A stretch of DNA of 64,000 nt from Bacteroidota bacterium. GTDB lineage: Bacteria > Bacteroidota > Bacteroidia > B-17B0 > Aurantibacillaceae. The first letter of the stretch is position 1; the number at the start of each line of letters is the position of its first letter. The stretch is taken from the NCBI GenBank assembly GCA_013288015.1, contig JABDCR010000004.1:21087-85086 (forward strand). Direction: 5' to 3'. Positions 4,363 through 36,370 of this stretch are shown in pieces. Under the pieces are notes generated by a model that saw nothing but the letters and a program-made list of their open reading frames with translations, had not been told where the DNA came from and searched no databases. A program made the translations under genes and the position numbers.

Positions 4363-4384
4363 TTGAAAAATAATCCAAGGTTAG

Positions 4385-4422: not shown

Positions 4423-4472
4423 CATTTAAACAATAAAAAAATTAACTCTATATTTGTTTTACAAAATGCATC

Positions 4473-4829: not shown

Positions 4830-4895
4830 CAACTTATCAATACTAAAAAAATTAGAATTATTTTACTTCTTTCTTTAACTGTAAAAAATGAAAGT

Positions 4896-5976: not shown

Positions 5977-6052
5977 AAATATAAATAGTGAAGAAAAAAT
6001 CCAAATAATTATAAAGCAAAGCCGTAATTTCGTTATAGATTAATACAAATAA

Positions 6053-7155: not shown

Positions 7156-7175
7156 TGCCGAGCAAGCTGTTGTTA
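7156..7175 (+). repeat. Repeat L copy 2 (tgccgagcaagctgttgtta)
   Basis: 18/20 match to 516-535. Confidence 0.7.
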
Positions 7176-7189
7176 GGCACAGTAATTCT

Positions 7190-7579
7190 TTAGTCACGGT
7201 TATCATTAATTATTTTTTTCACAAACTCTTGCCCTGAAATTACACTTTCGTCACCTTTAAAGATACTTGATTCAAATTTGCCGTCATTGAATATTTCAAT
7301 TTCAATTCTTGCACCAACAATTGTTGCGCAAACCATTACTGAATTTTCCCTAGTTCGTTCTAATTTGTAATATATTTTTGTTTTGTCCAGTTCTTCTAAT
7401 ATTTCATAAAGAGGATGGTTGTTCGTTTTAACACTTTTCAATTTCTTAAGGATATAACCAATAACATAGTCGGGTTGTGTTGTAACTTGTATGTCTTTAT
7501 TTTTAACAAGTTCTTTTAACGCTTTTTCAATCGTCTTCCATTCTTTCAAAAATTTATATTCGTTGTATGTTGAACTCAT
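7190..7579 (-). CDS. Hypothetical protein (129 aa)
   Basis: Intact ORF, flanked by repeats L and R as is 560-1027. Confidence 0.55.
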   Translation of the reverse strand: MSSTYNEYKFLKEWKTIEKALKELVKNKDIQVTTQPDYVIGYILKKLKSVKTNNHPLYEILEELDKTKIYYKLERTRENSVMVCATIVGARIEIEIFNDGKFESSIFKGDESVISGQEFVKKIINDNRD

Positions 7580-7640
7580 TTCTTTCGTGTTAATTTCTTA
7601 TATTTTTTTCAATATGCGAACAGTTTTCATTATTGCCACT

Positions 7641-7715
7641 ATCTTATTATTTATATGATAAAACTACATAAAGCCACCCACTCGTTATCAAAAAAATGCT
7701 TTTTTATTTAAGGTT
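7641..7715 (-). repeat. Repeat R copy 2
   Basis: tcttattatttatatgataaaactacataaagccacccactcgttatcaaaaaaatgcttttttatttaaggtttt aligns with 1069-1140. Confidence 0.75.
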
Positions 7716-7874
7716 TTCCCTTAAACGGGTCTATTTATTAAAAATAGGTCTAAATAACCCATTTGAATAGGGTGGATGAAATAATTTCCCCAATTTCCTG
7801 CCTTATTTCTATCAGAATAACTAAATTTGATGCTCAAATTAAAATCGCATTTTTAACCTATAATATAATAAACT

Positions 7875-10142: not shown

Positions 10143-10147
10143 CTCCT

Positions 10148-10215
10148 GTCATTTCGAAGGAGGCACGACTGAGAAATCTGTTTAGAAACGGATTTCTCCC
10201 TCTGGTCGAAATGAC
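10148..10215. repeat. Palindromic intergenic element, copy A
   Basis: gtcatttcgaaggaggcacgactgagaaatctgtttagaaacggatttctccctctggtcgaaatgac: gtcatttcga / tcgaaatgac and gagaaatc / gatttctc arms. Confidence 0.85.
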
Positions 10216-10246
10216 AACACACAAGCGAAAGACAACAAACTATGAG

Positions 10247-10279
10247 AAAACCGCTTCACTAAAATGGAGCGGTTTTTTT
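10247..10279 (+). terminator. Rho-independent-type terminator downstream of aconitase
   Basis: aaaaccgcttc...ggagcggttttttt hairpin with T run. Confidence 0.75.
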
Positions 10280-10316
10280 GTTTGGTAATTTCCCTCCTAA
10301 TAAGGCAAATAAAAAA

Positions 10317-10345
10317 AAAGGGCTTACAATTAATGTAAGCCCTTT
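10317..10345 (-). terminator. Terminator hairpin downstream of recQ
   Basis: aaagggcttaca-attaa-tgtaagcccttt perfect 12-bp stem followed by A run on + (T run on -). Confidence 0.85.
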
Positions 10346-10366
10346 CGTATTATTATAGAGAGTGGT

Positions 10367-12592
10367 TTAGTTAGCGTACTCGCTTAAAAACTTAATACGC
10401 ATTAAACGTACTTCTTCTTCGGTATAATCATCAGCGCCTAATTCTTTAAGGGCTGCTTCAATTGAGTCTGAAGTAGATTCGCGGAAATATTCAATCACTT
10501 CCTCTTGCTTCTCAACATCCATATTTTCATCTAAGTAATATTTGATATTAAGTTTAGTGCCTGAGAAAACAATGGTTTCCATTTCGTGTAATAAATCGTT
10601 AAACGATAACTGTTTTGATTTAGCTATGTTCTCTAAATTTATTTTACGATCAACATTTTGAATGATGTAAATTTTATTACCCGATTTGTTGGCAACCGAT
10701 TTTACCACCATATCCATTGGGCGTTCGATATCGTTTTCTTCTACATGCTTTTTAATTAAAGCAATGATAGATTTACCGAATTTAGTTGCTTTACCTTGGC
10801 CTACACCGTTGATATGCGTAAGCTCTTCAACCGTAATAGGATATTGTATAGCCATCTCTTCTAACGAAGTCTCGGCAAAAATAGCGTAAGGAGGTAATTT
10901 AGCCTGTTTAGATATTTTTTTAACCTCGTCTTTTAAAAGCGCGTACAACAACTCATCAGCAGCACCTGCGCCTTTGCCTGTTGGTGTAATGATATCATCA
11001 TCATCACTTCCTTCAGCACCACTGTAATCGTGGTCGCGTGCCACCATAATAGAATATGGTTTCTTTAAAAATGCTTTTCCTTTATCGCTTACTTTAAGCA
11101 AGCCGTAATTCTCAATGTCTTTAATAAGCAAGTTGTTTACCAATGCCTGACGGAACACAGCACTCCAGTAACGGTCGTCTTTATCATCTTCAACACCATC
11201 GCCAAACAATTTTAAATCGTTGTGCTTGTATGTTTTTCCGGTTGATGTAAGTGTACCCATCAACACATTAATAACATCTTTAGTTTTATGTTTTTCTTTA
11301 ACGGCAAGTACTGCGTTAAGTGCCAATGCAATGTCTTCTTTTCCTTCAGCTTTTTGTTTAGGATGACGGCAGTTATCGCAAAGGCTATTGCAATCAGCCT
11401 CATTAAAATCTTCGCCAAAATAGTGTAGTAAAACCTTGCGGCGGCAAGATGATGTTTCGGCAAAAGAAACCGTTTCGTTTAAAAGGCTTTTACCAATTTC
11501 CATTTCGGCAACCGGTTTACCTTTTAAAAACTTCTCTAACTTAACAATATCGTCATAGCTGTAAAAAGTAACACAGTTACCCTCACCGCCATCACGTCCT
11601 GCACGTCCTGTTTCCTGGTAATAGCTTTCTAATGATTTTGGAATATCGTGGTGTATTACAAAACGAACATCCGGCTTATCTATTCCCATGCCGAAGGCAA
11701 TGGTAGCTACAATTACGTTTAAATCTTCCATAAGGAAGCCGTCCTGCACTTTAGCACGCTCTTTGGCATCCATGCCTGCATGATACGGTGCGGCTTTTAT
11801 ACCGTTAACCTGTAGTGCCTCAGCAATCTCCTCCACCTTTTTACGGCTTAAGCAATAAACAATGCCCGATTTTCCGGCATTTTGCTTTACGTATTTTATA
11901 ATTTCTTTGTTTACGTTGGTTTTTGGGCGAATGTCATAATATAAGTTACCACGGTTAAACGATGACTTATATAAGTTAGCATCTAACATGCCTAAATTCT
12001 TCTGTATATCTAACTGAACTTTAGGGGTTGCGGTAGCGGTAAGGGCAATTACCGGGATGTTCATTTTCATGCGCTCGCTCACCTTATCTATAATGGGGCG
12101 TAAACGGCGATACTCAGGGCGGAAATCATGTCCCCACTCAGATATACAATGTGCCTCATCAATAGCAAAGAAAGATACGTTAAACTCGGTAAAGAATTTA
12201 ATATTATCTTCTTTTGTTAAAGTTTCAGGGGCTACATATAAAAGTTTGGTTTTTCCGGCAAGTACATCTTTTTTAACCTGGGTAATATCTGCCTTGTTTA
12301 AAGACGAGTTAAGGAAGTGGGCAATGCCATCTTCGTTACTAAAGCCTCTAATAGCATCTACCTGGTTTTTCATTAAAGCAATAAGTGGCGATACTATAAT
12401 AGCCGTACCCTCGCTTACAATGGCAGGTAATTGATAGCACAACGATTTACCCCCGCCCGTGGGCATAATAACAAAAGTATCTTTACCAGCTAAAATGCTG
12501 CTAATGATTTTTTCTTGATTCCCTTTAAATTTTCCGAAACCGAAAAACTTTTTAAGGGTGCCCTGTAGCGATAATTCAAGTGTTGCACTCAT
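10367..12592 (-). CDS. recQ: ATP-dependent DNA helicase RecQ
   Basis: IMPTGGGKSLCYQLPA, AIDEAHCISEWGHDFRPEYRRL, YYQETGRAGRDG; Zn-binding CNSLCDNC, HRDC. Confidence 0.95.
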   Translation of the reverse strand: MSATLELSLQGTLKKFFGFGKFKGNQEKIISSILAGKDTFVIMPTGGGKSLCYQLPAIVSEGTAIIVSPLIALMKNQVDAIRGFSNEDGIAHFLNSSLNKADITQVKKDVLAGKTKLLYVAPETLTKEDNIKFFTEFNVSFFAIDEAHCISEWGHDFRPEYRRLRPIIDKVSERMKMNIPVIALTATATPKVQLDIQKNLGMLDANLYKSSFNRGNLYYDIRPKTNVNKEIIKYVKQNAGKSGIVYCLSRKKVEEIAEALQVNGIKAAPYHAGMDAKERAKVQDGFLMEDLNVIVATIAFGMGIDKPDVRFVIHHDIPKSLESYYQETGRAGRDGGEGNCVTFYSYDDIVKLEKFLKGKPVAEMEIGKSLLNETVSFAETSSCRRKVLLHYFGEDFNEADCNSLCDNCRHPKQKAEGKEDIALALNAVLAVKEKHKTKDVINVLMGTLTSTGKTYKHNDLKLFGDGVEDDKDDRYWSAVFRQALVNNLLIKDIENYGLLKVSDKGKAFLKKPYSIMVARDHDYSGAEGSDDDDIITPTGKGAGAADELLYALLKDEVKKISKQAKLPPYAIFAETSLEEMAIQYPITVEELTHINGVGQGKATKFGKSIIALIKKHVEENDIERPMDMVVKSVANKSGNKIYIIQNVDRKINLENIAKSKQLSFNDLLHEMETIVFSGTKLNIKYYLDENMDVEKQEEVIEYFRESTSDSIEAALKELGADDYTEEEVRLMRIKFLSEYAN

Positions 12593-16313: not shown

Positions 16314-16332
16314 CACCAAATAATCAGCTAAA
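16314..16332 (-). repeat. Relic of Toprim-gene 3' end (copy 1)
   Basis: Minus strand reads ...LADYLVG; caccaaataatcagctaaa matches 24847 region. Confidence 0.5.
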
Positions 16333-16345
16333 CCAATATTGTAAA

Positions 16346-16918
16346 TTAATTGCGTTTTGTTTGGTAGTGCAGGGCAATTACGCCACAAGCAAATGTTTTG
16401 CTTTCTATAAATTTTAGTTTAGTTATTTCGGTAACATTTTTAAATAGTGGCATTCCTTTGCCAAGCAATATGGGGTTAACAAATAACCAAAACTCATCAA
16501 TTAGCCCCTCACTTAATAAGGAATGAGAAGCACGCGGGCTACCGAAAATTAAAATATTTTTTCCGGCCTGGTTTTTTATTTTATTTATGTTGTCTGCAAG
16601 GTGGTCGCTAATAACGGTAGTGTTGTTAAGTCCTTTTTCACTAAGTGTTTTTGATAAAACAATTTTTGAAACCTTGTTATACCAAGCCGAATGTTCTTTA
16701 TCGTGTTTAGATGCGTTTGGCTTTTCGCCCGCTTTTGGCCAATAAGCCTGCATCATATCATAGGTTACTCGGCCATAAAGTGCAGTATCGGCTTTGTCAG
16801 TCATAGTGCCAACAAAGTCAAACATAGCCTCGTCTAAAGTTATCCAGTTCATTTCTCCGTTAAGTCCTGCCACAAAGCCGTCAAGCGAAGTGTGCATAAA
16901 AAAAATTAAATTTCTCAT
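16346..16918 (-). CDS. Dihydrofolate reductase family protein (RibD C-terminal-like)
   Basis: MRNLIFFMHTSLDGFVAGLNGEMNWI...ILIFGSPRASHSLLSEGLIDEFWLFVNPILLGKGMPLF. Confidence 0.9.
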   Translation of the reverse strand: MRNLIFFMHTSLDGFVAGLNGEMNWITLDEAMFDFVGTMTDKADTALYGRVTYDMMQAYWPKAGEKPNASKHDKEHSAWYNKVSKIVLSKTLSEKGLNNTTVISDHLADNINKIKNQAGKNILIFGSPRASHSLLSEGLIDEFWLFVNPILLGKGMPLFKNVTEITKLKFIESKTFACGVIALHYQTKRN

Positions 16919-17002
16919 TTTAATTAGGTTTCTTGTTTTTTTGGGTGTATCAAAACTAATTATTTTCTGTAAATAGTAAAACGAAGCTTTGTTTTTAATC
17001 TA

Positions 17003-17038
17003 TTACAAGTTGCCAAATAATCGGCTAAATCTAAGTCT
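17003..17038 (-). repeat. Relic of Toprim-gene 3' end (copy 2)
   Basis: Minus strand gac tta gat tta gcc gat tat ttg gca act tgt aat aga = DLDLADYLATCNR. Confidence 0.65.
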
Positions 17039-17136
17039 TATAAAAATCTGGCATATTTTTTATGACCTATTAAAATCTTTTTGTTTGAGAAATTTGTTCT
17101 ACAACTAATTGTAAATAAATTGTAAAATTTGCAGTC

Positions 17137-17550
17137 ATGAAACCGCCCGAGAAAATATTTGAAACCAACAAATACAAACTAACCTTTCATAACATTAATT
17201 TTTATGAAATATTAATAAAAGAAAATGTAACATTAGATGTAGAACTACTTTTAGAGATTAAAAATATATCTGAAAATAATCACCTGCACACCAAATCCTG
17301 CATTTTAGTTGAAGGAGTAGGTTTTTTTAATGTAACAAAAGAAGTACGCGAATTAGGTGCCGAAAAAAAATTCTCTGCAAGAGCAATGGCTGTTGCCTGT
17401 TTTTTTAAAAACCCAAGCTTGTTGCTTATAGGCGAGTTATATAATAAAATTAATAAACCCGCTGTAGAAACAAAAATGTTTACCAATAGAGAAAAAGCAA
17501 AAAATTGGCTAAAATCCTTTATAGAAGCGGATAGTAATATTAGAATATAA
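17137..17550 (+). CDS. Hypothetical protein, STAS/SpoIIAA-like fold suspected
   Basis: 137 aa; alternating pattern ending NREKAKNWLKSFIE, as in small STAS-like Bacteroidota proteins. Confidence 0.5.
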   Translation: MKPPEKIFETNKYKLTFHNINFYEILIKENVTLDVELLLEIKNISENNHLHTKSCILVEGVGFFNVTKEVRELGAEKKFSARAMAVACFFKNPSLLLIGELYNKINKPAVETKMFTNREKAKNWLKSFIEADSNIRI

Positions 17551-17562
17551 TTTAGTTTTTTA

Positions 17563-17608
17563 TCTATTACAAGCCACCGAATTTAAACCTTGTTGTTTTT
17601 GTTGTGGC
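17563..17608 (-). repeat. Relic of Toprim-gene 3' end (copy 3)
   Basis: Minus strand ...QKQQGLN(gap)SVACNR*; shares the cttgtaatagat tail with copy 2. Confidence 0.6.
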
Positions 17609-17667
17609 TTGGCTTGAGGTTTTAATAAAGTAAAAAATTTCTATTTTTATGCGAGAAAATACCGGGC

Positions 17668-18249
17668 ATGGAAAAACATCTTCTTTTAAAAGAACTACAA
17701 TCTAAACATGATTTTTCTGAAGCTGATTTTGAGAAATTGTTACCACTGTTTGAAGAACGCAACTACAAAAAAAATGAAATGATTTTTAAAGCGGGCGATG
17801 TGGTGAAATATGTTTTTTTTATTCTTAAAGGTTGTTTCAGGCAATTTTATATTAATGCAAATGGCATGGAGCGAACTATTTATATAATGGAAGAAGGGCG
17901 TTGGACAGGAGAATCCTTAAGTTTTATGAACGAAATTCCTACCAATATGAATTTGCAGGCACTTGAAGATTGCAAGGTGTTGGCTATGACCAAACCTAAA
18001 TGGGAGTATGCTATTCGCAATATACCCGAGTATGCCTTGTACCATATGAAAAATCATCAGCGTATGATTGCCTGGTTAAAAGAACAACTGGGTGCTGCCG
18101 TTACCGAAAAACCCGATGAACTTTACCGCCGCTTATTAAATGAAACGCCACACCTGTTGCAACGCTTGCCACAATACGAAATTGCCAAGTACTTAGGTGT
18201 AACACCCGAAACTTTAAGTAGAATTAGAAAAAGAAATACCAGGCTGTAA
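17668..18249 (+). CDS. Crp/Fnr family transcriptional regulator
   Basis: cNMP-binding domain (FKAGDVVKYVFFILKGCFRQFYIN) and C-terminal HTH YEIAKYLGVTPETLSRIRKRN. Confidence 0.9.
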   Translation: MEKHLLLKELQSKHDFSEADFEKLLPLFEERNYKKNEMIFKAGDVVKYVFFILKGCFRQFYINANGMERTIYIMEEGRWTGESLSFMNEIPTNMNLQALEDCKVLAMTKPKWEYAIRNIPEYALYHMKNHQRMIAWLKEQLGAAVTEKPDELYRRLLNETPHLLQRLPQYEIAKYLGVTPETLSRIRKRNTRL

Positions 18250-18331
18250 ATCATTTCTTGATTTGAATCAAGATTTTTTAAAATAACACTCCGTTACTTT
18301 GCCTCATATAAACCAATAAAAAATAAAAAGT

Positions 18332-18685
18332 ATGAAAAAAGTAATTATCTCGGCAGCAGTTTTAGCAGTAACTACATTAAGCTTTGCATTTAAATATGCC
18401 GAAAGCGGAAAAAATGTAACCATCATTAACACGGTAGAAGTAAAAGATTATGCCGAGTTTAAAAAAGGGTTTGATGCAGGTGCGCCTATTCGCGAAAAAG
18501 GAGGCATTAAGGTTATAAACCTGTATCAATCGGTTGATAATAAAAACATGGTTACCATTATTGAAGAGGCAGCCAGTGCCGAAGCTGTTAAACAATTTTT
18601 TAGTAACCCCGACATGAAAGCCGCTATGGAAAAAACAGGCGTTATATCTAAACCCGATATGAAAATTTTAACCAAAGTTCAATAA
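18332..18685 (+). CDS. Secreted ABM-like (antibiotic biosynthesis monooxygenase fold) protein
   Basis: Signal peptide; VTIINTVEVKDYAEFKKGFDAGAPIREKGGIK...MVTIIEEAASAEAVKQFFSNPDMKAAM. Confidence 0.6.
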   Translation: MKKVIISAAVLAVTTLSFAFKYAESGKNVTIINTVEVKDYAEFKKGFDAGAPIREKGGIKVINLYQSVDNKNMVTIIEEAASAEAVKQFFSNPDMKAAMEKTGVISKPDMKILTKVQ

Positions 18686-18693
18686 TATCAGTT

Positions 18694-19125
18694 ATGAGTA
18701 ATCAGGAAATCATAAAGTTTGGCGGTATCGAAGTGCATTACAACCTTGATGCAAGCGATACGCAGAATGCCTTAACCTTGTTTAAGTGCGTTATACACCC
18801 CGGTTCAAAAATTGCCGCTGCACACTATCACGAGCATTTTGACGAAACGGTTTATAGTCTTAAAGGAACCGCCACTTACATAGTTGATGGAAAAACTATT
18901 GAGTTAAACCCCGGCGATTCTCTTTTTATACCGCGCGGTGTGGTACACGCTTTTGCAAATAAAAGTAATGAGCTTATTGAATTTCTTTGCTATTGCAGCC
19001 CCGGCTTAATGGTACCTGATTACTTTAAAGACATTGCCGAAATAATTAATGCAGGTGGCCCACCCGATATGGCAAAATTAAAAGAGGTTATGTTACATTA
19101 TGGTTTAGTGCCGGTGGTTGGATAA
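18694..19125 (+). CDS. Cupin domain-containing protein
   Basis: HYHEHFDETVYSLKGTATYIVDGKTIELNPGDSLFIPRGVVHAF. Confidence 0.88.
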   Translation: MSNQEIIKFGGIEVHYNLDASDTQNALTLFKCVIHPGSKIAAAHYHEHFDETVYSLKGTATYIVDGKTIELNPGDSLFIPRGVVHAFANKSNELIEFLCYCSPGLMVPDYFKDIAEIINAGGPPDMAKLKEVMLHYGLVPVVG

Positions 19126-19184
19126 ACCAGCGGCGCTTTAAACCATTTTATTTGTTATTTAATTTTTTTTGAATACAAAAAAAG

Positions 19185-19820
19185 ATGAACCCTAAAACAT
19201 TTTCGAACATAGAGAAAATTATCCAACTTGTACAAAAAGTTACACCACCTGTTATTTTGTTGTGCGCACTTGTATTGGGTTACACATCGGTTAACCCTTG
19301 GATAACCATGCCGGCAACACTAATGGCGCCGGTAGTAGGCATTGGCTTATCTAAATACGGGGCCAAAAAAAACAAATCTATGCGTTGGTATATTGCTATT
19401 ATAAATGGTTTACTGGTTTTTTTAATTTGTTGCTTAGCGGACAAAAACTCGCCTGTGTTTATTATTGGCATTACTAATATTTTATTTGTTTCTATTTACT
19501 TTCAAAAAACGGCGGAGAAGGCGGTTAATTTTTTATTTTCTTTTTCTTTACTAATCGGAGGCTCTTTGCTTTCTGAAATGCAAAGCCCACTTATTATTGA
19601 AGGGGCGCTACTGTTGGCACTATATGCGTTTGTGCTAAACCAAACTCTGTTATTTGTTGCTATGCAGAGTAAAGAAATACAACATCAAAAAGAAATAATA
19701 GAAGAAAAACACAAAGAGGTAATGGATAGCATACACTATGCAAAACGTATACAAAGTGCTTTAATTACTTCTGAAAAATCTATTGAGGCTAGTTTAAACA
19801 AACTAATGAAACAGAATTAA
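19185..19820 (+). CDS. Membrane protein ending in a KEVMDSIHYAKRIQSAL signalling-linker motif
   Basis: Several TM segments, then EKHKEVMDSIHYAKRIQSALITSEKSIEASLNKLMKQN*. Confidence 0.65.
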   Translation: MNPKTFSNIEKIIQLVQKVTPPVILLCALVLGYTSVNPWITMPATLMAPVVGIGLSKYGAKKNKSMRWYIAIINGLLVFLICCLADKNSPVFIIGITNILFVSIYFQKTAEKAVNFLFSFSLLIGGSLLSEMQSPLIIEGALLLALYAFVLNQTLLFVAMQSKEIQHQKEIIEEKHKEVMDSIHYAKRIQSALITSEKSIEASLNKLMKQN

Positions 19821-19823
19821 AAC

Positions 19824-19910
19824 TCACCAAATAATCAACTAAATCTAAGCCTTGTTGTTTTTCTGTTTGGGTGGCGTTGCGTTCTAACAAATTTGATACG
19901 GTAATTTTTT
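19824..19910 (-). repeat. Relic of Toprim-gene 3' end (copy 4)
   Basis: Minus strand ITVSNLLERNATQTEKQQGLDLVDYLV versus ISVSNLLQHNATETEKQQGLDLADYLV in 24833-25744 (22/27). Confidence 0.85.
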
Positions 19911-19942
19911 GCCTGACTATTAATGGAAATGAACACCACCAT

Positions 19943-20836
19943 TTACTTAGAGAATAACACGTATCCGTAAGTGTTGTTACCCAGCTTCCGCAATTGCTTC
20001 GGAAACAATAGTGAAGCCAGTTTTAAAGCCGGACTTAAAGGTAGTTTTTTTCCTATACGGTCGGCTTCGTCAAGAATATGAATGTCTTCGTAAATTTTCC
20101 ATCCATGCGAACTAAATAATTGCAACGGCCACTCTACATCAAATTGAATGGGTACCCGTTTCATTTTTTTAAGAAGATCGTTGGCCTGTTTGTGACGACG
20201 CATTTTGCCTTGCTGGTAGTCTTGTATCCAATAGTTGAAATTATTTTGTGCAAAAATATCTTTAGACAAGGTTTCGGCGTCTTCATTGCGCAGATATCCA
20301 ATTACACCTTCGGTGATAACCAAAGCGCTGGTACTTTTTAACGACAGCTGTTCAAATAGTGCTTTTCTTTGTACGGTATCTGAAAGATCGCATCCCAAAC
20401 GTTGCAAATTACACTGCGGTATTTCTGCAGCCAGTTTTTTTTCTTTATAGCTGATTAGTTCCGGATAATCTACTTCAGTCCACTTCAACGAGTTTGGCAG
20501 TTTTAGGCGGTACGGACGTGTATCAAGTCCTGCGCCGAGATTGATTATGTGATTAACGTTTTTTTGAAGTGCTGATTCAATGAGTCTGTCAATCGCCGTT
20601 GTGCGAACTATCATAGCAAACGACATGGCCTGAATATGAGGCATGCTTCGTGCCATTTCGAAACCTTGTTGTCCTGCAAGTTGTGCAGCTAACGGATCAC
20701 GTACAACCGGGTTGGCGAGCTCGGTTTCCATCGCCCTTAAAGCGGCAATCCAATGCGCAGTTTCAGAAATATGGTTAAAGTCTTTTTCCATACTTGTAAA
20801 AATAACTCTCTGCATTTGTTGGGTTTTCACCAACAA
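19943..20836 (-). CDS. Class I SAM-dependent methyltransferase, leucine carboxyl methyltransferase-like family
   Basis: RTTAIDRLIESALQKNVNHIINLGAGLDTRPYRLKLPNSLKWTEVDYPELISYKEKKL. Confidence 0.88.
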   Translation of the reverse strand: MLVKTQQMQRVIFTSMEKDFNHISETAHWIAALRAMETELANPVVRDPLAAQLAGQQGFEMARSMPHIQAMSFAMIVRTTAIDRLIESALQKNVNHIINLGAGLDTRPYRLKLPNSLKWTEVDYPELISYKEKKLAAEIPQCNLQRLGCDLSDTVQRKALFEQLSLKSTSALVITEGVIGYLRNEDAETLSKDIFAQNNFNYWIQDYQQGKMRRHKQANDLLKKMKRVPIQFDVEWPLQLFSSHGWKIYEDIHILDEADRIGKKLPLSPALKLASLLFPKQLRKLGNNTYGYVLFSK

Positions 20837-20874
20837 GCAATTAATTCTTTATAAATATACAAACTTTTGTTTCC

Positions 20875-20945
20875 CACCAAATAATCAGCAAAATCTAAGC
20901 CCTGTTGTTTTTCTGTTTGGGTGGCGTGACGTTCCAGTAAATCCT
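20875..20945 (-). repeat. Relic of Toprim-gene 3' end (copy 5)
   Basis: Minus strand EDLLERHATQTEKQQGLDFADYLVG. Confidence 0.85.
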
Positions 20946-20953
20946 CACGCTTT

Positions 20954-21032
20954 GTCATTTCGAAAAGGAATGAATGAGAAATCTGTTTGTGAATCTACTT
21001 AGAAACGGATTTCTCCCGCTGGTCGAAATGAC
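20954..21032. repeat. Palindromic intergenic element, copy B
   Basis: gtcatttcgaaaaggaatgaatgagaaatctgtttg...agaaacggatttctcccgctggtcgaaatgac. Confidence 0.85.
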
Positions 21033-21050
21033 AAGGAATTGAAAAGTTTA

Positions 21051-21707
21051 TTACATCACCAATAAGTTTTGAGTTACCTCATTACTTAAAATAGTTTGGT
21101 TGCTGTTATTAATTACAACCGTCATTGATTTATCGAAAGCCTGAATTTCTTTTACCTCAATGCTGTTGTTAATGGTTAAGCCTGTTTTATTAAGGAACTG
21201 CAAAAACGCTGTTGAGTGATTGCAAACCCCAACCAGCTTATATTTTTTATTTACCTGCGCATCGGCTAAAGTCATGGCTTTTAAGGCGGGCATTTTACCA
21301 TTTTTATCGGGTATAGGGTCGCCATGCGGGTCAAACTGAGGCGAGCCTAAAAATTTATCCAGCTGCTCCATTAGCTTTTCGCTTTGTATGTGTTCAAGTT
21401 GCTCGGCAACCTCGTGTACTTCGTCCCAACTAAAATTAAGTTTTTCGTATAAAAAGGTTTCCCACAAACGGTGCTTGCGTATAATTTTTAGTGCACTTTT
21501 TTTACCCGATGCCGTAACGGTTATTTTACCATACTTTTCGTAATCAATTAGTTTTTTTTCTTTCAGCCTTTTAAGCATATCGTTTGCAGTAGCTGTTTTA
21601 ACGCCCAAATTGGTAGCCAACTCGCTTGTGCCTGCTTCTTCATTAGGGTCATCCTGCGTTAAGCGGTATAGGGCTTTTAAATAGTTTTCTTCTGTAAACG
21701 ATAACAT
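21051..21707 (-). CDS. DtxR/MntR-family metal-dependent transcriptional regulator
   Basis: SFTEENYLKALYRL...TSELATNLGVKTATANDMLKRLKEKKLIDYEKYGKITVTASGKKSALKIIRKHRLWETFL. Confidence 0.9.
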   Translation of the reverse strand: MLSFTEENYLKALYRLTQDDPNEEAGTSELATNLGVKTATANDMLKRLKEKKLIDYEKYGKITVTASGKKSALKIIRKHRLWETFLYEKLNFSWDEVHEVAEQLEHIQSEKLMEQLDKFLGSPQFDPHGDPIPDKNGKMPALKAMTLADAQVNKKYKLVGVCNHSTAFLQFLNKTGLTINNSIEVKEIQAFDKSMTVVINNSNQTILSNEVTQNLLVM

Positions 21708-21774
21708 GGCACTAATTTAATAATTAAATATTTAAGCGGTGCTGCTATGGGATGCTGTGCGAATTTATCGGCAC

Positions 21775-23901
21775 TTACTTCTTCAAAACCTTAATGCACA
21801 AATCATCAAAGTAGCAGGTTTTATTGCCAAAATAATACAAGCACATAACTGCATTACCTGTAAAATTTTTTGTTAAACGTACTTTCAATTGTATTTTTTT
21901 CCAACCCTTACCCAAATCTGCAACAACATCCTGACTTACTCTTTCAAAGCTTTTATCATTTTGCAGCGATAAAATAATGCCCCCTACTTCATCTTCGGCA
22001 AGTCTGTTTACGCTTATCTCAACTTCATCGCCCGGTTTAACTTCAAAATTTACCCCTCCTATATAAGCATGTTTATTATTTGCTTTTAAGGAAGTAGTTG
22101 CCGAAGTAAATTGCTCTTTACAACTTACAGTTAACCCATCGCAAGTGTTTAAACCATCAGCCGATACAAAACCTGATTTGTTTGGAGCAATTTTTTCGAA
22201 ATCAAAATTTATGGTTACCGTGTTGCTATAATGTGGTTTTGCCAAAGCGGTATCAATGTGTATTACATAAAATTCGTCTCCCGTTTCGGGAAAAGTGCGG
22301 GCAAGCTCTATGCTTTTTACGGCATATTTATAATCTACTGTAATGCTATCAAGTACGCTTTGTTTAAAGGCTTCATCTTTTCGCAAAAAGTTAACCAGCA
22401 CTTCTGGGTACTTTTCAAAAATATCTGCATGCGGTGTTTCTCTGTAAAAGCAAAATATTTTATTCGGTATTTTTTCGTACATAAAAGTAGTAGGGTATCT
22501 TTTGCGCACATACTGGCGGCCTTGTTCAAAACTATCGCCCCCATAAGCTATACCAAAATTAAGTGCCGATTCAACAAAGCAACTCTCTTCGTAACCTGTG
22601 GTCATTATTTTAGGCATATTGCCAAATTGCTTGGCCGCTCCTATACTCGATATGTATTGCGGATTTCCTTTGGCATAACTGGTACCATAAAATTGCAATT
22701 TATAAAGTAACAAGCCTGTACTTACTGTTAGCATTAGTACTGCAATAAGCTTGTTTAATTTAATTTGCGAAAAAGCAACCAAGCCTGCTAAAACTGCCGG
22801 AATAGTTACTGCCCTTGCCGGAATTAAATAATGAAAACTATAATGCTTGGCAGCCAGCATAATTTGTAAAACTATAACCAGCCAAAAAGCCAATGCCAGT
22901 TTATAAAAACTACTTTTCCATTTTTTGGTAAACAAACCAACTATTACCATAATAGAAAGCAGTATAAACCCGGTGGTAAAAAAATACTCGTCGGCAAAAA
23001 GTGTTTTTAGGTTTTTTATATATTCTACCTTATCAATAATTTGTTCTTTGCCGCTGCCATATTGCCCCGAGTGCGTTGCCATGCCAAAAAACCATTTATA
23101 CATGCCTTTAAAACTATTCCAAACCGGATATAGAATTAACAAAGCAAAAACCGCTAAACCAATTATGTATATGATAAATTTTTTAGGCTTTTCAATAAAA
23201 AACAAAGGCACCAGTATAAAAGGCACACAGGTTATTTTAGCTACAAACAAAGCGGCTGTTACAAAAGCCATAAACAAAATTGACTTAGTGCTAATAGTAT
23301 AGCCATCTATCTTACTTTTTTTATAGCTCAGCACCCATAAAAAAGCACAGTAATAGGGTAGTGTTAGTAGCATAATATATTCGGGACACACCCTGATAAA
23401 AAAATGAAAATTTAAGTAAGCGCTTATAGCTATAAGCTGAAAAAAGAAAGCCGTAATATAATTGCCCGTGTTTTTGGCAATAAGTTTGCCTGCGGCATAT
23501 ACAGTAAGCATTATTAAAGCAATACAAACAATGGCATCGGCACGTAAATAAAACTCGGGGCGGTTAATTACATCCTCAACTACATTGCCTTTACCCAAAA
23601 AAAGATGCGTAAAAAAAATAATAATGCCTGCCAACCAATGAGCCGTTGTGCCGGGGTTGTCGTAATGACCTAAATCTATATGTCCGTTGGCAATGTTGGT
23701 TCCGTTTATTAAATAGATGTAAGTAGAATCGGTATAGGTTGTAAAAAAGTTTACCCCCTGGTAGTAGTAAAGCCAAGCAAACACACCATAAACTACCGGC
23801 AGCAAAAAAAGCAGGAAACTATTTTTTTTAGTGTACGATATTGCCGCACCCCCTGTAAAAACTGATTTTAGAGCCAATGATAGGTTGTTTTCGCTTTCCA
23901 T
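21775..23901 (-). CDS. Glycosyltransferase family 39-like polytopic membrane protein
   Basis: 708 aa with about 10 hydrophobic segments, GHYDNPGTTAHWLAG loop and extracytoplasmic C-terminal domain. Confidence 0.6.
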   Translation of the reverse strand: MESENNLSLALKSVFTGGAAISYTKKNSFLLFLLPVVYGVFAWLYYYQGVNFFTTYTDSTYIYLINGTNIANGHIDLGHYDNPGTTAHWLAGIIIFFTHLFLGKGNVVEDVINRPEFYLRADAIVCIALIMLTVYAAGKLIAKNTGNYITAFFFQLIAISAYLNFHFFIRVCPEYIMLLTLPYYCAFLWVLSYKKSKIDGYTISTKSILFMAFVTAALFVAKITCVPFILVPLFFIEKPKKFIIYIIGLAVFALLILYPVWNSFKGMYKWFFGMATHSGQYGSGKEQIIDKVEYIKNLKTLFADEYFFTTGFILLSIMVIVGLFTKKWKSSFYKLALAFWLVIVLQIMLAAKHYSFHYLIPARAVTIPAVLAGLVAFSQIKLNKLIAVLMLTVSTGLLLYKLQFYGTSYAKGNPQYISSIGAAKQFGNMPKIMTTGYEESCFVESALNFGIAYGGDSFEQGRQYVRKRYPTTFMYEKIPNKIFCFYRETPHADIFEKYPEVLVNFLRKDEAFKQSVLDSITVDYKYAVKSIELARTFPETGDEFYVIHIDTALAKPHYSNTVTINFDFEKIAPNKSGFVSADGLNTCDGLTVSCKEQFTSATTSLKANNKHAYIGGVNFEVKPGDEVEISVNRLAEDEVGGIILSLQNDKSFERVSQDVVADLGKGWKKIQLKVRLTKNFTGNAVMCLYYFGNKTCYFDDLCIKVLKK

Positions 23902-23974
23902 TTTTATAATAGCCGTTAAAGATACTTTTTTTTGCTATTCTACCACAACACGATTGAAGAGTAGCTGGTACAAG

Positions 23975-24204
23975 GTACAATTTTGTATACTATACTAAAC
24001 CTTGTACCACTTTATATAAATGACAAAACGTAATAAAATAGTGTTGAGGTTTGTTGTTGTCGCAAGGTTTCAAATCCAGCGGAGCGGGGGTACAATTTTG
24101 TATACTAAACTAAACCTTGTACCACTTTATATAAATGACAAAGCGTAATAAAATAATGTTGAGGTTTGTTGTTACCGCAGGATTTCAAATCCAGCGGAGC
24201 GGGG
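23975..24204. repeat. Two tandem copies of a 115-bp repeat (23975-24089, 24090-24204)
   Basis: Both read gtacaattttgtatact..aaccttgtaccactttatataaatgacaaa.cgtaataaaata.tgttgaggtttgttgtt...tttcaaatccagcggagcgggg. Confidence 0.9.
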
Positions 24205-24230
24205 AACAACAAAGGTAGAGTGGTTATAAT

Positions 24231-24794
24231 TTACTTCTCAAAATCCACACGCCAACCTTTTACACTCTTTTTATAATATCCATGTTGAAAAAGCTTATGG
24301 TCATATCCAAACAATTCATAATAAAATGTTCCATCAATATTATTAAACATTTTTGTATAATCTAATATTTCCTCCATTGAACATATCCCATTCTTGTCCC
24401 ACCTGAAAGCTTTTATTAAGACAGGTCTACCGTTTTGGTATAATTCTTCATAAGATGGGTTTCCATTCTTATATAAAAGTTTTAGAATTCCGTTAATTGG
24501 AGTTGGGTTACCTCTTTGAGATGTAATGCCACTATATTTAATAATATATTTTTTTGGTCTGGGATGTTTCGAGAAAGGATAAACACATTCACCAACATTG
24601 TCATACAATTCATATCCTATATAGAAGGCATTTTTCTTGTCTACTTTATTTGCGTATTCGTTAAGATAGACTTGCCAAAAACCAATTTTCTTATGCTTGT
24701 CATTATATTTATTAATTGTGTCAGAAAGATTCTGCGAAAAAAGATTGCTAATTGTAAGAAAAAGGGTGAGTATAAAAAATTGTCTGATTTTCAT
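24231..24794 (-). CDS. Hypothetical secreted protein
   Basis: Signal peptide ILTLFLTISNLFSQ; GFWQVYLNE...NGILKLLYKNGNPSYEELYQNGRPV (MORN/toxin-antitoxin-2-like text). Confidence 0.6.
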   Translation of the reverse strand: MKIRQFFILTLFLTISNLFSQNLSDTINKYNDKHKKIGFWQVYLNEYANKVDKKNAFYIGYELYDNVGECVYPFSKHPRPKKYIIKYSGITSQRGNPTPINGILKLLYKNGNPSYEELYQNGRPVLIKAFRWDKNGICSMEEILDYTKMFNNIDGTFYYELFGYDHKLFQHGYYKKSVKGWRVDFEK

Positions 24795-24832
24795 AAATTA
24801 TTATCGCTAACCCATTTATATGTTTGATAAAA

Positions 24833-25744
24833 TTACATAAAAGCCACCAAATAATCAGCTAAATCTAAGCCTTGTTGTTTTTCGGTTTCGGTGGCGTTGT
24901 GTTGTAATAAGTTTGATACGCTAATTTCGCAAATAGCTGATAGCTCTTTTGCTTTGGCGTTCCATTTTTCAAAGGCGTTTAAATCGGGGTAGAGGGTAAC
25001 CGTTTTACCTTTTAGCACGCTGCATTTTTTCAGCGTTAAATTGCTGAGGCTGCCAACGGCCAGCCAAATAAAATCAGGTAAATAAACACTGGCTATTAAG
25101 GCTGTTTTTTCGCTTTCTACCAGGGCAACTTGTTGGTTGTTGTGGGCTAACAAATGCTCGCCAAACAAACATTGCCGTAAATTAAAATGTGTCTGTCCAA
25201 TTGTTTTGTGCGCCCAGTGTATGTGGTTGTAGGGTTGCTTAACCCGCTTGCCTGTTATGGGGTTGTACAGCATGAGTTTGCCTGTATGTATTTTACCCAA
25301 GGCATCTACCTGCCAAAAAACAGTGGTACCCTGCCAGTATTTAGCTGTGCCAATGTAATATTTGTGTACTAATTTTTGTACCACATCAGCATTAAACAAG
25401 CTGCTTAAAAATTGCACAAAATGGTTGTTGCTGTATTGCTTTAGGCTGGCTGCAAAAACACTCTCAGGAATATACGATATGGCTTGTTGTGTAAGTGAAG
25501 TAGGAGGGGTGCAATAAATGGGTTTGGTATATGCTAAATTATTATCAATAAAATATTGTTTGGGTGTGTAGTGGTAGCCGCATTTGCTAAGGCGGTTACA
25601 TATGCCTACGGTGTGGTGTAAGGGCTGATTGGTTTCTGTATCAATGTAAAGAGTAAAGGTTTTATCCCTCTTTTTACATGCCGGACAAACAAACCGTGTG
25701 CTCATGCCCTTATAAGGTTGTAATATATATGGGTAGGTTTTCAT
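24833..25744 (-). CDS. Zinc-ribbon/Toprim-like mobile-element protein (DUF6371-like, primase-related)
   Basis: FVCPACKKRDKTFTLYID...GICNRLSKCGYHYTP zinc ribbon; VALVESEKTALIAS ... KGKTVTLYPDLNAFEKW Toprim-like motifs. Confidence 0.75.
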   Translation of the reverse strand: MKTYPYILQPYKGMSTRFVCPACKKRDKTFTLYIDTETNQPLHHTVGICNRLSKCGYHYTPKQYFIDNNLAYTKPIYCTPPTSLTQQAISYIPESVFAASLKQYSNNHFVQFLSSLFNADVVQKLVHKYYIGTAKYWQGTTVFWQVDALGKIHTGKLMLYNPITGKRVKQPYNHIHWAHKTIGQTHFNLRQCLFGEHLLAHNNQQVALVESEKTALIASVYLPDFIWLAVGSLSNLTLKKCSVLKGKTVTLYPDLNAFEKWNAKAKELSAICEISVSNLLQHNATETEKQQGLDLADYLVAFM

Positions 25745-25775
25745 TTAATACATTTTGTCACTTCGCTTGTGTGTT

Positions 25776-25901
25776 GTCATTTCGACCAGCGGGAGAAATC
25801 CGTTTCAAACAGATTTCTCAGGCTCGCCCTACAAGCTGGCTCTTCACTAAAAATATCCACAGGATATTTTCTTTACGTTCAGCCCTCTCCTTCGAAATGA
25901 C
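25776..25901. repeat. Palindromic intergenic element, copy C
   Basis: gtcatttcgaccagcgggagaaatccgtttcaaacagatttctcaggc...ccttcgaaatgac. Confidence 0.8.
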
Positions 25902-26062
25902 AAGCGCTGTTTTCATTTATAAAAAGTGGTGTAACAAAAAATATACATAGGGCTTTTGTTGTTATTACACCACTATTTAAATTATTATTATTATTTATTT
26001 GTACTAATATATTACTGGGTAAAGTGGTGTAATAATAACAAAGGGCATAGCAAATTAACTTG

Positions 26063-27187
26063 TTACACCACATTTGATTCATTATTAATTCTCCAACGTT
26101 TATCTACATCCTGTATAATCATTTTATAATCTTTCATGTCAGTAAATAAATTTTTTGAGGTGGACTTACTTTTTTGGGTTTGGTCCATTATTTTGAAAAT
26201 CGCATCGTGATACGTTAACGATGTTTGTCCGCCAAAAACTTGCTGGCAAATAATTTTGATAGAGTTTAAGCGGGTTTCGTTTTTATCCTCGCTTACACTG
26301 CGTATGCCGCAACCCACATGGTAGCCTTTATCTTTATCGTACATAAATTGTATGGCCGGTATATTGGCTTTGCCTGCCATGCGCAATAGCTTGGGCTCTA
26401 TAAACGAAATGTTGCCTTCGGTTTTAACCATCAGTAAACTTTCGCATTTACGCTGACACTGACTGCCTAAATGCCCTCGCTCTTTATCAGTACCCGGGTT
26501 GGTGTGCACTATTACTATAATGGGCATGTGATATTTTACGGCCAGCTCTTCAAAAAATTTTACAATAACCATGCTTTGTTCGGCATCGTTTACATCTTTT
26601 ATAAAATCGGCAATGCCATCAATTACCAGTAGGTGTATGCCGCCAAATTGTTGCAGGGCGCCTTCGCAAATGTCGCTGGTCATTTGCGCATATGTGGCAA
26701 TTTCAAGCTGACGTATGTTGTAGGATAATAAATAATCGCAGCCACTCATATTGGCACGCCGCAAAACCGACATAATATTTTTTAAGTGCTTGTGCTTTGC
26801 CTGTTCGGTATCCATGTGTATAACGGCTTTTTTATGTATGTTGGGTTGCACGTTTACAAACTCAAGTCCGTCAATTAAACCATCGGGGCTAATGGCACCT
26901 GCCATAAGGATACTTGTAAAAGCACTCTTACCGCTTTTGCTGGCGCCGCTAATGGTGGTTAGGTTGCCCTCGGTACTAATAATTTCATCGTTAATGGTTA
27001 TAACGGGCACAGGCTCGGCAATTTGCGAGTGCTCGCTTATGCGGTGCACTTCGTACACATCAAGCATGTTGGGGTTACGTAATTTATAAAGATGGCGCAT
27101 GGCATCTTCTTGTATATCCTTCAGCGTAATTTTTGGGTTTAGTGGTGGTACGTCTTTCATGGTTTTATAATTTTTACGAAAGTACAA
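26063..27187 (-). CDS. RepA-like AAA ATPase/helicase of mobile elements
   Basis: Walker A TTISGASKSGKSAFTSIL, Walker B IHLLVIDGIADF, VIVHTNPGTDKERGHLGSQ. Confidence 0.82.
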   Translation of the reverse strand: MYFRKNYKTMKDVPPLNPKITLKDIQEDAMRHLYKLRNPNMLDVYEVHRISEHSQIAEPVPVITINDEIISTEGNLTTISGASKSGKSAFTSILMAGAISPDGLIDGLEFVNVQPNIHKKAVIHMDTEQAKHKHLKNIMSVLRRANMSGCDYLLSYNIRQLEIATYAQMTSDICEGALQQFGGIHLLVIDGIADFIKDVNDAEQSMVIVKFFEELAVKYHMPIIVIVHTNPGTDKERGHLGSQCQRKCESLLMVKTEGNISFIEPKLLRMAGKANIPAIQFMYDKDKGYHVGCGIRSVSEDKNETRLNSIKIICQQVFGGQTSLTYHDAIFKIMDQTQKSKSTSKNLFTDMKDYKMIIQDVDKRWRINNESNVV

Positions 27188-27359
27188 AAGGTGTGGAATA
27201 ATACATTCTTTAAAACTGCCGTAAAGCCCTGTATGGCTGTACTGACGCTGTAATAAGTGTGTAATAATATATGAGAATCAGCTTATTGAAAATAAAAACA
27301 AGCCTGTGAATAGAAATATTTTGTTGGTAAGTTTTTGTTTTGTCTTTAGCCGGTGCGTT

Positions 27360-27446
27360 GTCATTTCGACCGCAGGGAGAAATCTGTATTTGGTATTAGA
27401 TTGTTTGCAAATAAAGATTTCTCGGTCGTTCCTTCTTCGAAATGAT
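27360..27446. repeat. Palindromic intergenic element, copy D
   Basis: gtcatttcgaccgcagggagaaatctg...aaagatttctcggtcgttccttcttcgaaatga. Confidence 0.8.
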
Positions 27447-27503
27447 TTTATTTTTGGTATTTTTAATTTATCTTTGATAACCCAAAATAATGGGCAATCA
27501 ATT

Positions 27504-27908
27504 ATGACAACAGGGAAAGAATTAGCAAATAGGCTTCTTGAAGACATTAATAAATCTGTAGCAATAAGACAAAAAGTTCAAGACCCATTTACTCAAGTAA
27601 GAAACATAGGCATAAGTGGACAAGCGGACTTAAGTGGCTTTATGTCCTCCTTAAATGTTTTAAGTTTTGATGGACACTTAGACATTCTTTCTCAATTCAT
27701 TAATTTTCATAAACGATTGGTTAATCACGATAAAGGGACTAAAGTTGATATTGCTGTTTGGCAAAAAGATGTTCAAAATAATCTTGATGAGATTGCACAT
27801 ACTTTCCAAGAAATTATCTCAAGTGACACGGAAGACGTTTTCACAGAAACTAAATTTTCTGAATTCTTAATTGAACAGTTGGGTTATCTACATGACGACG
27901 CTAATTAA
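27504..27908 (+). CDS. Hypothetical protein (134 aa; true start probably MTTGKELANRLLEDIN)
   Basis: Track ORF begins at 27306, but its first 66 codons translate the palindromic repeat; in-frame ATG at 27504. Confidence 0.55.
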   Translation: MTTGKELANRLLEDINKSVAIRQKVQDPFTQVRNIGISGQADLSGFMSSLNVLSFDGHLDILSQFINFHKRLVNHDKGTKVDIAVWQKDVQNNLDEIAHTFQEIISSDTEDVFTETKFSEFLIEQLGYLHDDAN

Positions 27909-27928
27909 ATAATCAGCTAAATCTAATG
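27905..27928 (-). repeat. Relic of Toprim-gene 3' end (copy 6)
   Basis: Minus strand PLDLADYLI. Confidence 0.5.
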
Positions 27929-27929
27929 G

Positions 27930-27961
27930 AAATACAGATTTCTCCCTCCGGTCGAAATGAC
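27930..27961. repeat. Half copy of palindromic element (copy E)
   Basis: aaatacagatttctccctccggtcgaaatgac. Confidence 0.7.
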
Positions 27962-28022
27962 AAAGCGTAATAAAATAGTGTTGAGGTTTGTTGTTGCATG
28001 GTTTCAAATCCAACGGAGCAGG
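27958..28022. repeat. Half copy of the 115-bp repeat
   Basis: gacaaagcgtaataaaatagtgttgaggtttgttgttgcatggtttcaaatccaacggagcagg. Confidence 0.85.
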
Positions 28023-28028
28023 CGGTAG

Positions 28029-28556
28029 TTAGTTCTGAAAATTTGGATCCCACCATTCTATTTTATTAATAATCCATTTGTTTTTAACGGGGTCCAGTTT
28101 TATATGAATTTTAATTGGGTCGGAATTGCCATGATATAATTGAGGCCTACTTACATATCCTTTATATGTGGCTCGCTGATAGAGTACTTCAATTGTTTTT
28201 TCTATTTTGTTTTTTTTTGATGACTTAATTTCATAGAAAAAACACATCTCTAAAGTAGTATCGTGTTTTAAAATTTTTAAAAACTCCTTCTCTGATTTAA
28301 TTGTATGATATTTTGCACAATTTATATTTACAGAACTATCTTTTGTTAATGCTGAACTATTTTCAATTTTAGCATAAACATCAAGGAAATTAATTTGTGC
28401 GTGCTTGCAATAAATAGAATCAAAAATAAAATCTGCATTAATTTTTTTTTGAGAGAAACAATATTGAACGAATATAAAAAGGACAATAAGAAATGTTATT
28501 TTCTTCATGATTTGAATATTATAAGATTGGCACGTCGTTCCTACTTGCAATGACAA
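28029..28556 (-). CDS. Hypothetical secreted protein
   Basis: In-frame start MKKITFLIVLFIFVQYCFSQ gives a signal peptide. Confidence 0.55.
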   Translation of the reverse strand: MSLQVGTTCQSYNIQIMKKITFLIVLFIFVQYCFSQKKINADFIFDSIYCKHAQINFLDVYAKIENSSALTKDSSVNINCAKYHTIKSEKEFLKILKHDTTLEMCFFYEIKSSKKNKIEKTIEVLYQRATYKGYVSRPQLYHGNSDPIKIHIKLDPVKNKWIINKIEWWDPNFQN

Positions 28557-33119: not shown

Positions 33120-33250
33120 AAGGGGGCAGTACTAAAAGTGTTTTGTTTGGTCGTTATCCTAAGTAAAGCACAAGTAATTATCAGGTGTTTTATTTAAGTA
33201 GGAATTGTAATTTACTTTTTATATATTTGGTTATATTAAACACCAAACTC

Positions 33251-34786
33251 ATGAAAAAAATATTACTTTCCATCCTAATTATATTTTCTTTTGTTGCTGT
33301 AAAAGCACAATACAAAAATTATGGCGATAATTTAACTGATTTAAAAAAGCAAGGCAAGCTAACGGGCAAAGAACGCATTTACAATCCCAATGCAACAAAG
33401 CATTTGCAAATAACTAAATCAATAAATCAGGTAGCAAAAAATGGCTCGCATAATAATGCAACTATGGGTGTAACATCTACCCAATGTAATTGTTGGATAC
33501 CAAAAGATACTTCTTTTCATACGGTTCCGTTTGATGGCAGTGGTGCAAGTGGACCACCAACTCCCGGAGATCCTAATTATGCAAACGATGATTGGTCTAC
33601 TTATGGTATAACATTACCATTTAATTTTTGTTTATACGGAGATACTGTGGGAATTGATTCAACGCATCAATTATTTATAAATAACAATGGTAACATTTCT
33701 TTTGGCGCACCTTATTCTGATTTTACAGCAGTTCCTTTTCCAAGTGCTCAATATAATATGATAGCTCCTTTTTGGGGGGATGTAGATACAAGAGGTGCTG
33801 GCAGTGGATATGTTTATTATCAATTAACTTCAACTCATTTAATTATTCAGTGGGATAGTGTTGGCTATTTTATGGAACATGATGATAAAAGCAATACATT
33901 TCAATTAATTATTACAGATGGAACGGATCCACTTTTACCGGTAGGATATAACATTTCTTTTTGTTATGGCGATATGCAATGGACAACAGGAGACGCATCT
34001 AGCGGAGTTTTAGGTTTTAGAGGTTTTCCTGCTACAGTGGGTATAAATAAAGGAGATGGAATAAATTATTTTCAATTGAGTTTATTTGATACTGCCGGTA
34101 CTGCTTATACAAACCCTACCGGAACTCCGGCAAGTGGAGTTGATTGGTTAGATTACAGGTCATTTTTGTTTAACTCTTGCGGTACAAGCAACAATTTACC
34201 TCCGCTTTCAATTAGTAACGACTCTACTGTGTGTGATACAATGAATGTTTATGTAGTAGGCGATACACTTATTATACAACGCCTTAGTTTTATTCCGCCC
34301 GAGGCAAATCAATTTACAACCATAGCGGCGGCATCACCTGATTTAGGCTCTAATTTTTCTGTCATAAATTCAAATTCGGGCGTAGTAGCTTCTTTAACTT
34401 TTAGAGTAAGCAGCAATGGTTTAACCCTGGGTAATTATTATCACATAACTGCAACCAGTACAGATAATGGTACACCTGCTTTAAGCACTACCATGAATTA
34501 CGTGGTTCATGTATTAGATTCTTCAAGCGCTGTTACAGGCATTAAAACAATAAATGACAAACAAATTTCAATTTATCCTAACCCAAACAACGGCAATTTT
34601 GTGATAGAAACAAATAACACAAAACAATTTATGCAGGTATACGATGTAACAGGCAAAGTTGTTTTAAGTCAAACTATAACAGGTAAAGCAACTATAGATG
34701 CCAGCAACTTAAGCGAAGGTGTTTATAACGTTAGTCTTACAAGTAGCAAAGGTGTTGTAAATAAACGATTGGTTATTGTAAGGTAA
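33251..34786 (+). CDS. Nidogen-like (NIDO) domain secreted protein with T9SS type A tail
   Basis: Signal peptide MKKILLSILIIFSFVAVKAQ; NNNGNISFGAPYSDFTAVPFPSAQYNMIAPFWGDVDTRG; SIYPNPNNGNFVIETN...VNKRLVIVR. Confidence 0.82.
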   Translation: MKKILLSILIIFSFVAVKAQYKNYGDNLTDLKKQGKLTGKERIYNPNATKHLQITKSINQVAKNGSHNNATMGVTSTQCNCWIPKDTSFHTVPFDGSGASGPPTPGDPNYANDDWSTYGITLPFNFCLYGDTVGIDSTHQLFINNNGNISFGAPYSDFTAVPFPSAQYNMIAPFWGDVDTRGAGSGYVYYQLTSTHLIIQWDSVGYFMEHDDKSNTFQLIITDGTDPLLPVGYNISFCYGDMQWTTGDASSGVLGFRGFPATVGINKGDGINYFQLSLFDTAGTAYTNPTGTPASGVDWLDYRSFLFNSCGTSNNLPPLSISNDSTVCDTMNVYVVGDTLIIQRLSFIPPEANQFTTIAAASPDLGSNFSVINSNSGVVASLTFRVSSNGLTLGNYYHITATSTDNGTPALSTTMNYVVHVLDSSSAVTGIKTINDKQISIYPNPNNGNFVIETNNTKQFMQVYDVTGKVVLSQTITGKATIDASNLSEGVYNVSLTSSKGVVNKRLVIVR

Positions 34787-34920
34787 TTTGTGCCATTTTA
34801 ATGAATAAATAAGGCTTTTAGCCTTGCATGCAAGCTTGTGGTTAAATCTTTTTACTTATTTCGTTAAAACTTCAAATCGGTTTAAGAGTTTTTTTGTATT
34901 ATAGCTTAAAATTTGCTTGT

Positions 34921-36336: not shown

Positions 36337-36370
36337 TGATAACTTTAAAACTTTATTTAATTAAAACAGC

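Follow-up and report, generated by a model that had tools for sequence, protein, structure and literature searches.

The locus lies within a stretch of 64,000 nucleotides (the window), part of contig C4 of an assembly of 2.47 Mb in 98 contigs that is 58% complete, which bounds any genome-wide count given here; the species is represented in the dataset by this single incomplete assembly, whose genes place it in the Bacteroidota. The window carries one intact DUF6371 gene (Table 1), whose product scores 208 bits with PF19898 and 93 bits with PF21957, compared to curated Pfam cut-offs of 27.7 and 27, and thus belongs to both families. It is preceded by a gene for an AAA_25 ATPase, distant plasmid relatives of which are annotated as bifunctional DNA primase/helicase, and followed by a small gene for which the Pfam search returned no family. 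With these two neighbours, no relaxase or mob gene adjoins DUF6371 in the window. Likewise, the window contains no integrase; none of the four PF00589 genes in the 58%-complete genome is located on C4, and none has the length of an IntI-like recombinase. Two identical 20-nt sequences in direct orientation, at 24849-24868 and 27907-27926 (spacing 3,058 bp), bound a segment with the DUF6371 and AAA genes.

Table 1. Features of the window and tail copies elsewhere. E-values of the attI-like sites follow from construction, the model having been built from the same five sites; their independent support is the shuffle test and BLAST matches.
Feature	Position	Strand	Basis
attC-like left half AACAGCGGCTTGCTCGGCA at end of cassette 532-1070	514-534	-	sequence comparison
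Integron-type cassette, gene 560-1027 inside	532-1070	-	complementary ends
attI-like half site heading cassette 532-1070	1063-1103	-	E 4.5e-9
attC-like left half and interior after gene 7190-7579	7132-7172	-	sequence comparison
attI-like half site upstream of gene 7190-7579	7636-7679	-	E 3e-9
Tail W1, ~20 nt	16314-16334	-	sequence comparison
RibD_C-type reductase, cargo between W2 and W1	16346-16918	-	Pfam
Tail W2, LDLADYLATCNR	17003-17039	-	sequence comparison
DUF7793 gene, cargo between W3 and W2	17137-17550	+	Pfam
Tail W3, core deleted, both sides kept	17563-17626	-	model match, E 3e-11 (model built with W3 included)
Tail W4	19818-19910	-	89% identity over 90 nt to intact tail
LCM-type methyltransferase, cargo between W5 and W4	19943-20836	-	Pfam
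attC-interior-like sequence directly after W5, before methyltransferase gene	20829-20878	-	score 24
Tail W5, LLERHATQTEKQQGLDFADYLVG	20872-20945	-	sequence comparison
Small gene after attI-like half site of intact gene	24231-24794	-	ORF
attI-like half site overlapping last DUF6371 codons, upstream of gene 24231-24794	24806-24848	-	E 1.3e-10; 0/200 shuffles
Intact DUF6371 gene (Zn_ribbon_16 and DUF6371, Toprim-like; primase-like mobile-element gene)	24833-25744	-	Pfam
Tail W6, 3' end of intact gene, reference copy	24838-24967	-	sequence comparison
AAA_25 (RepA-like) ATPase gene, upstream of DUF6371	26063-27187	-	PF13481, 32 bits
Tail W7	27907-27926	-	exact 20-mer of intact gene 24849-24868
Tail on another contig of the assembly	C14:31540-31674		sequence search
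Tail in same-genus genome G003	C40:15845-15910		model search

Copies of the DUF6371 3' end

The original prediction placed partial copies of the gene's tail at six other minus-strand sites of the window, and all six are present at coordinates correct to within a few bases. The 19-nt core GATTTAGCTGATTATTTGG, searched with up to three mismatches, occurs six times in the window compared to 0.07 expected from dinucleotide shuffles, which rules out chance matching; W3, the 17.57-kb copy, is outside these six. Apart from the intact copy and W7, which share an exact 20-mer, the tails with a core carry it in the same orientation with 1-3 mismatches. All copies derive from the 3' end of the gene and none from elsewhere in it, and they share a common 3' limit while their 5' limits vary, so that between ~20 and 125 nt are kept. 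The 3' flank TTGTAATAGATNAAAAAC is common to W3, W2 and the C14 copy; TTGTNATAGATNAAAAAC, which these three also have in common, is probably the end of the gene in its native form. For W5 the identity is 71% ungapped over 90 nt with W4 as reference, only ~70 nt of which are homologous. W4 truncates on its 3' side a SpoIIE-type gene, cut shortly past its linker helix (by eye and a weak BLAST match), with the stop codon inside the tail. W1 and W7 comprise only ~20 nt each, yet lie within the same 12 kb as the other tails.

A search of the genome and its relatives, as the original prediction had suggested, retrieved two more copies. The one on C14 lies straight behind the stop codon of a PD40-type gene, with genes for a kinase and a phosphatase downstream of it; the one in G003 sits between rplS and secA. 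A search with the 42-residue tail in 295 genomes of the class detected no tail-only copy, the remaining matches being full-length frames or frames at a contig end. Exact-pattern scans returned G003 alone among the species genomes and nothing among the viral contigs, and two model matches in G004 and G005 (E 0.002-0.004) look like chance on reading. Members of the genus are ~75-85% identical in DNA with reshuffled gene order; synteny, sought for an empty-site comparison via rplS and the genes at both window ends, is not kept among the available species of the genus.

Several other repeats were observed. A dispersed repeat TTGTCATTTCGACC..GGGAGAAATC occurs in both orientations (10149-10235, 20955-21034, 25762-25828, 27340-27445 and 27921-27966); some copies abut W5 and W7 and one lies between the AAA and DUF6371 genes. 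Between these two genes there is also a 160-nt imperfect inverted repeat (25919-26078), which may be a small mobile repeat and carries GTGGTGTAAC close to its ends. A 115-nt tandem duplication (23974-24203, 94%) shares a block, made up of two repeat families of 42 and 35 nt, with 27955-28022, after gene 28029-28556; each of these two stretches comes after a small minus-strand gene. The large genes 33185-34786 and 36371-39496 have diverged direct repeats in common (33571-37627; 73-78%), ~3.1 kb apart. In G003 the tail is flanked by the 12-nt inverted repeats GTATACCCTTTG/CAAAGGGTATAC (7780-7960 of that locus).

Integron-type sequence 3' of three tails

The sequence GGTGGSTTTTATGTAATTTTATNANACATATAAATNNGTTA stands behind the intact gene and behind the G003 tail. 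Its counterpart in the complete genome of G005, a member of the same genus, is placed between a 378-residue tyrosine recombinase, whose stop codon it directly follows, and the first cassette of an array, which it directly precedes. Since the same sequence follows a recombinase and precedes cassettes there, we read the stretch behind the intact gene and the G003 tail as an attI-type site. In G005:C43 (stretch 1-12000) the recombinase (330-1463) is followed by the attI-like site (1527-1566) and then by about eight or nine cassettes with attC-like hairpins of ~117 nt. The two ends of a cassette, GTTA... at the start and ...TAAC at the finish, match as complements at 12-13 of 14 positions, with the next start ~117 nt further on; nine such end pairs were counted where the null gave a mean of 0.4, though one or more of the nine pair the same end in an alternative way. 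Folding of the hairpins under RNA parameters gives -40 to -45 kcal/mol, and one folded as DNA gave a z of -4.2. The recombinase resembles IntI4 in sequence and scores above the cut-off of NF040815, while its 201 bits with TIGR02249 are below the cut-off of 265; at the IntI-specific extra domain it has 22 residues, compared to 64 in IntI4, and so lacks ~42. G005 thus possesses the attI site and the cassette array with attC of an integron, with a recombinase short of the IntI extra domain. Behind each of three other recombinases of this type, at a distance of at most ~130 nt, there is a comparable site ending ATAAGCRAG|TTA or ATATAAAC; one of these sites is cut by a contig end, and one lies at 7848-7945 of its locus. 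Two further attI-like sites (L171 and L178, G005:C13) have neither a recombinase nor a recognisable cassette.

Two attI-like half sites in the window (1063-1103 and 7636-7679) have the downstream sequence alone, the tail itself being absent, and each is upstream of one small minus-strand gene. The flank of W5 matches the interior of the G005 attC-like hairpins with a score of 24, where 200 shuffles reached at most 19. Altogether, three tails pass into integron-type sites at a common GGTGG, namely the copy at 24.8 kb and that of G003 into attI and the copy at 20.9 kb into attC interior. A connection of the tails with cassette junctions is therefore real, although behind five tails (W1, W2, W3, W7 and C14) no recognisable attI or attC was found. 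Cassette 532-1070 starts with GTTATAAGTAATAGGG and ends with its complement (15/16; 0/60 shuffles). It is the single window cassette to pass this test, and no cassette with complementary ends is headed by a DUF6371 tail. Complete attC hairpins were not found in the window, which has left halves only (514-534 and 7132-7172). The original prediction had proposed a cassette mechanism with the tail as junction; this stands as far as integron-type sites follow three tails, and falls short in that the window has no integrase and one cassette alone shows complementary ends.

The tail itself does not behave as an attC-like hairpin, since W6, W5 and the G003 copy fold no better than shuffles and the fold of the C14 copy is accounted for by a terminator-like hairpin. 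Its similarity to attC left arms was not significant (p 0.14), an Rfam search gave no match, and inspection by eye led us to drop a dif/Xer-like interpretation of the attI stretch.

Origin and arrangement of the tails

W4, W5 and the C14 copy keep the family-typical residues E-R (LLER/SER), also present in G036, where the intact gene has LLQH in the codon alignment. Divergence between the tails is mostly synonymous, with dN/dS of 0.15-0.6 for the six pairs among the four longer copies (the intact gene and three tails), indicative only given the few sites; for pairs with G003, 10 codons each, the values range from 0.2 to above 1. In agreement with the original prediction of distinct homologs, these residues and dN/dS values lead us to conclude from sequence that the tails derive from several different DUF6371 genes and are not duplicates of the intact one. 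Copies are present on a second contig and in a second species, and copies retain residues that the intact gene has lost, so that a single gene duplicated locally in tandem is rejected as their source; neither this nor chance, two of the outcomes named beforehand as fatal to the idea, accounts for the tails.

In G036 and on a viral contig, DUF6371 lies among genes of the integrase, helix-turn-helix and AAA/DUF3987 types; in records of Bacteroides mobile elements and plasmids it is accompanied by integrase, excisionase, AAA/DUF3987 and relaxase/mob genes. From this neighbourhood it follows that DUF6371 is a primase-like gene of integrative/mobilizable elements. In relatives the gene occupies the interior and not the end of the element, and their proteins extend 10-138 residues beyond DLADYL, whereas the window protein ends four residues after it. 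Of the proposal that an element family ends at this 3' end, the mobile-element nature of the gene, the common 3' limit, the variable 5' ends and the adjoining single accessory genes hold, while the interior position and greater length of the gene in relatives speak against it.

We propose, with a probability of roughly 0.42, that the tails are junction scars of several DUF6371 elements that met a cassette-rich integron-type region and then decayed, leaving their cargo. Several mobile elements with different versions of DUF6371 would have settled in or next to such a region, and their 3' ends would have come to adjoin cargo genes or integron-type sites, possibly joined to the latter by recombination or microhomology at GGTGG. 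The element cores may then have been lost by deletion, so that 20-125 nt from the 3' end of the gene stayed beside cargo that selection presumably retained. The truncation of the SpoIIE-type gene by W4 is expected of an insertion or deletion and was counted in favour of junction scars. Counted against them were the five tails without attI/attC, the failure to find complementary-end cassettes at tails, the missing window recombinase and the interior position of DUF6371 in relatives.

That all seven copies in the window point the same way, separated by one or a few genes, would also be expected of tandem accretion. Under this reading the attachment site recognised by an integrase lay at the 3' end of the DUF6371 gene carried by the element itself (core TTAGATTTAGCTGATTATTT), and elements stacked one after another in one orientation decayed to leave att sites between cargo. 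The exact direct repeat bounding the DUF6371-AAA segment fits this as well, and accretion with CIME formation is documented for IMEs (PMC5704250). However, the segment has no integrase, the gene of relatives is interior and continues 10-138 residues past the core, and the C14 and G003 copies lie at unrelated loci instead of one target, which makes accretion the less likely reading. Alternatively, the tail may be the left flank of attI/attC, the last bases of a platform carried along with cassettes by imprecise excision or recombination at GGTGG. This would explain the attI-like sequences behind W6 and the G003 tail and at 1.1 kb and 7.7 kb, each before one small gene, the attC-like sequence behind W5 and the one true cassette of the window. 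We consider it unlikely, since the 5' limits of the tails lack a G^TT cutting pattern by inspection, the tails differ as homologs would instead of being copies of one platform, and complementary cassette ends fail at all DUF6371 tails. Less credible still is a reading in which, in this Bacteroidota lineage, the 3' end of DUF6371 has itself turned into one half, the left, of an integron-type attachment site, a replication module having replaced the integrase before attI and the tail marking the cassette junctions of a second, degenerate kind of array.

Incomplete conjugative transfer, or else 3'-primed copying, could have left fragments anchored near a transfer origin and trimmed on one side, which would agree with the 3'-anchored, variably truncated copies and with the mob/relaxase genes that come after DUF6371 in pBUN2 and CP103138. 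No mob gene is near DUF6371 in the window, however, no oriT was identified, and the common limit is well before the gene end of relatives, which makes such an origin very improbable. We give equally little credence to an ordinary intergenic repeat, small and non-autonomous, that overlaps the 3' end of the gene by accident; further short repeats are indeed scattered through the same intergenic regions, but the copies retain the reading frame and family-specific residues, the tail is conserved as protein across the class, and neither terminal inverted repeats nor a strong fold were found.

Comparison with known systems

In Bacteroides integrative/mobilizable elements (CP103138.1, pBUN2), a gene of the same DUF6371 family likewise follows an AAA or DUF3987 gene. 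There it is intact and longer, is followed by mob genes and is accompanied by an integrase, whereas the window has one intact gene and tail-only copies without integrase or mob genes. CP103138.1 is a 10-kb circle with cfxA, which we take to be Tn4555-like, and the pBUN2 segment is presumably NBU-like; NBU1 carries a comparable primase gene beside oriT.

The arrangement of tails resembles CIMEs and the tandem accretion of ICEs and IMEs (PMC5704250), where decayed tandem elements also leave short direct repeats between cargo. In CIMEs, however, the repeat lies in a tRNA or host gene, whereas that of the window lies in an element gene, with no target gene or integrase identified. Like integrons (PMC9024848; PMC9668308), G005 has an attI-like site directly after a tyrosine recombinase, attC-like hairpins of ~117 nt and complementary cassette ends, but its recombinase is short of ~42 residues of the IntI extra domain. 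The window differs from integrons in having half sites and one cassette only, with DUF6371 tails in the place of the recombinase end. Complete integrons have rarely been reported in the phylum Bacteroidota, with one in Salinibacter (PMC9024848).

What is new here is the identity of the sequence 3' of three of the tails as attI- and attC-type sites. The locus allows one to trace how replication modules of mobile elements, sites of the integron type and individual cargo genes come to be interleaved. The IntI extra domain has been described as necessary for integron recombination (PMC9668308), and the G005 platform, which lacks it, would make that requirement directly testable.
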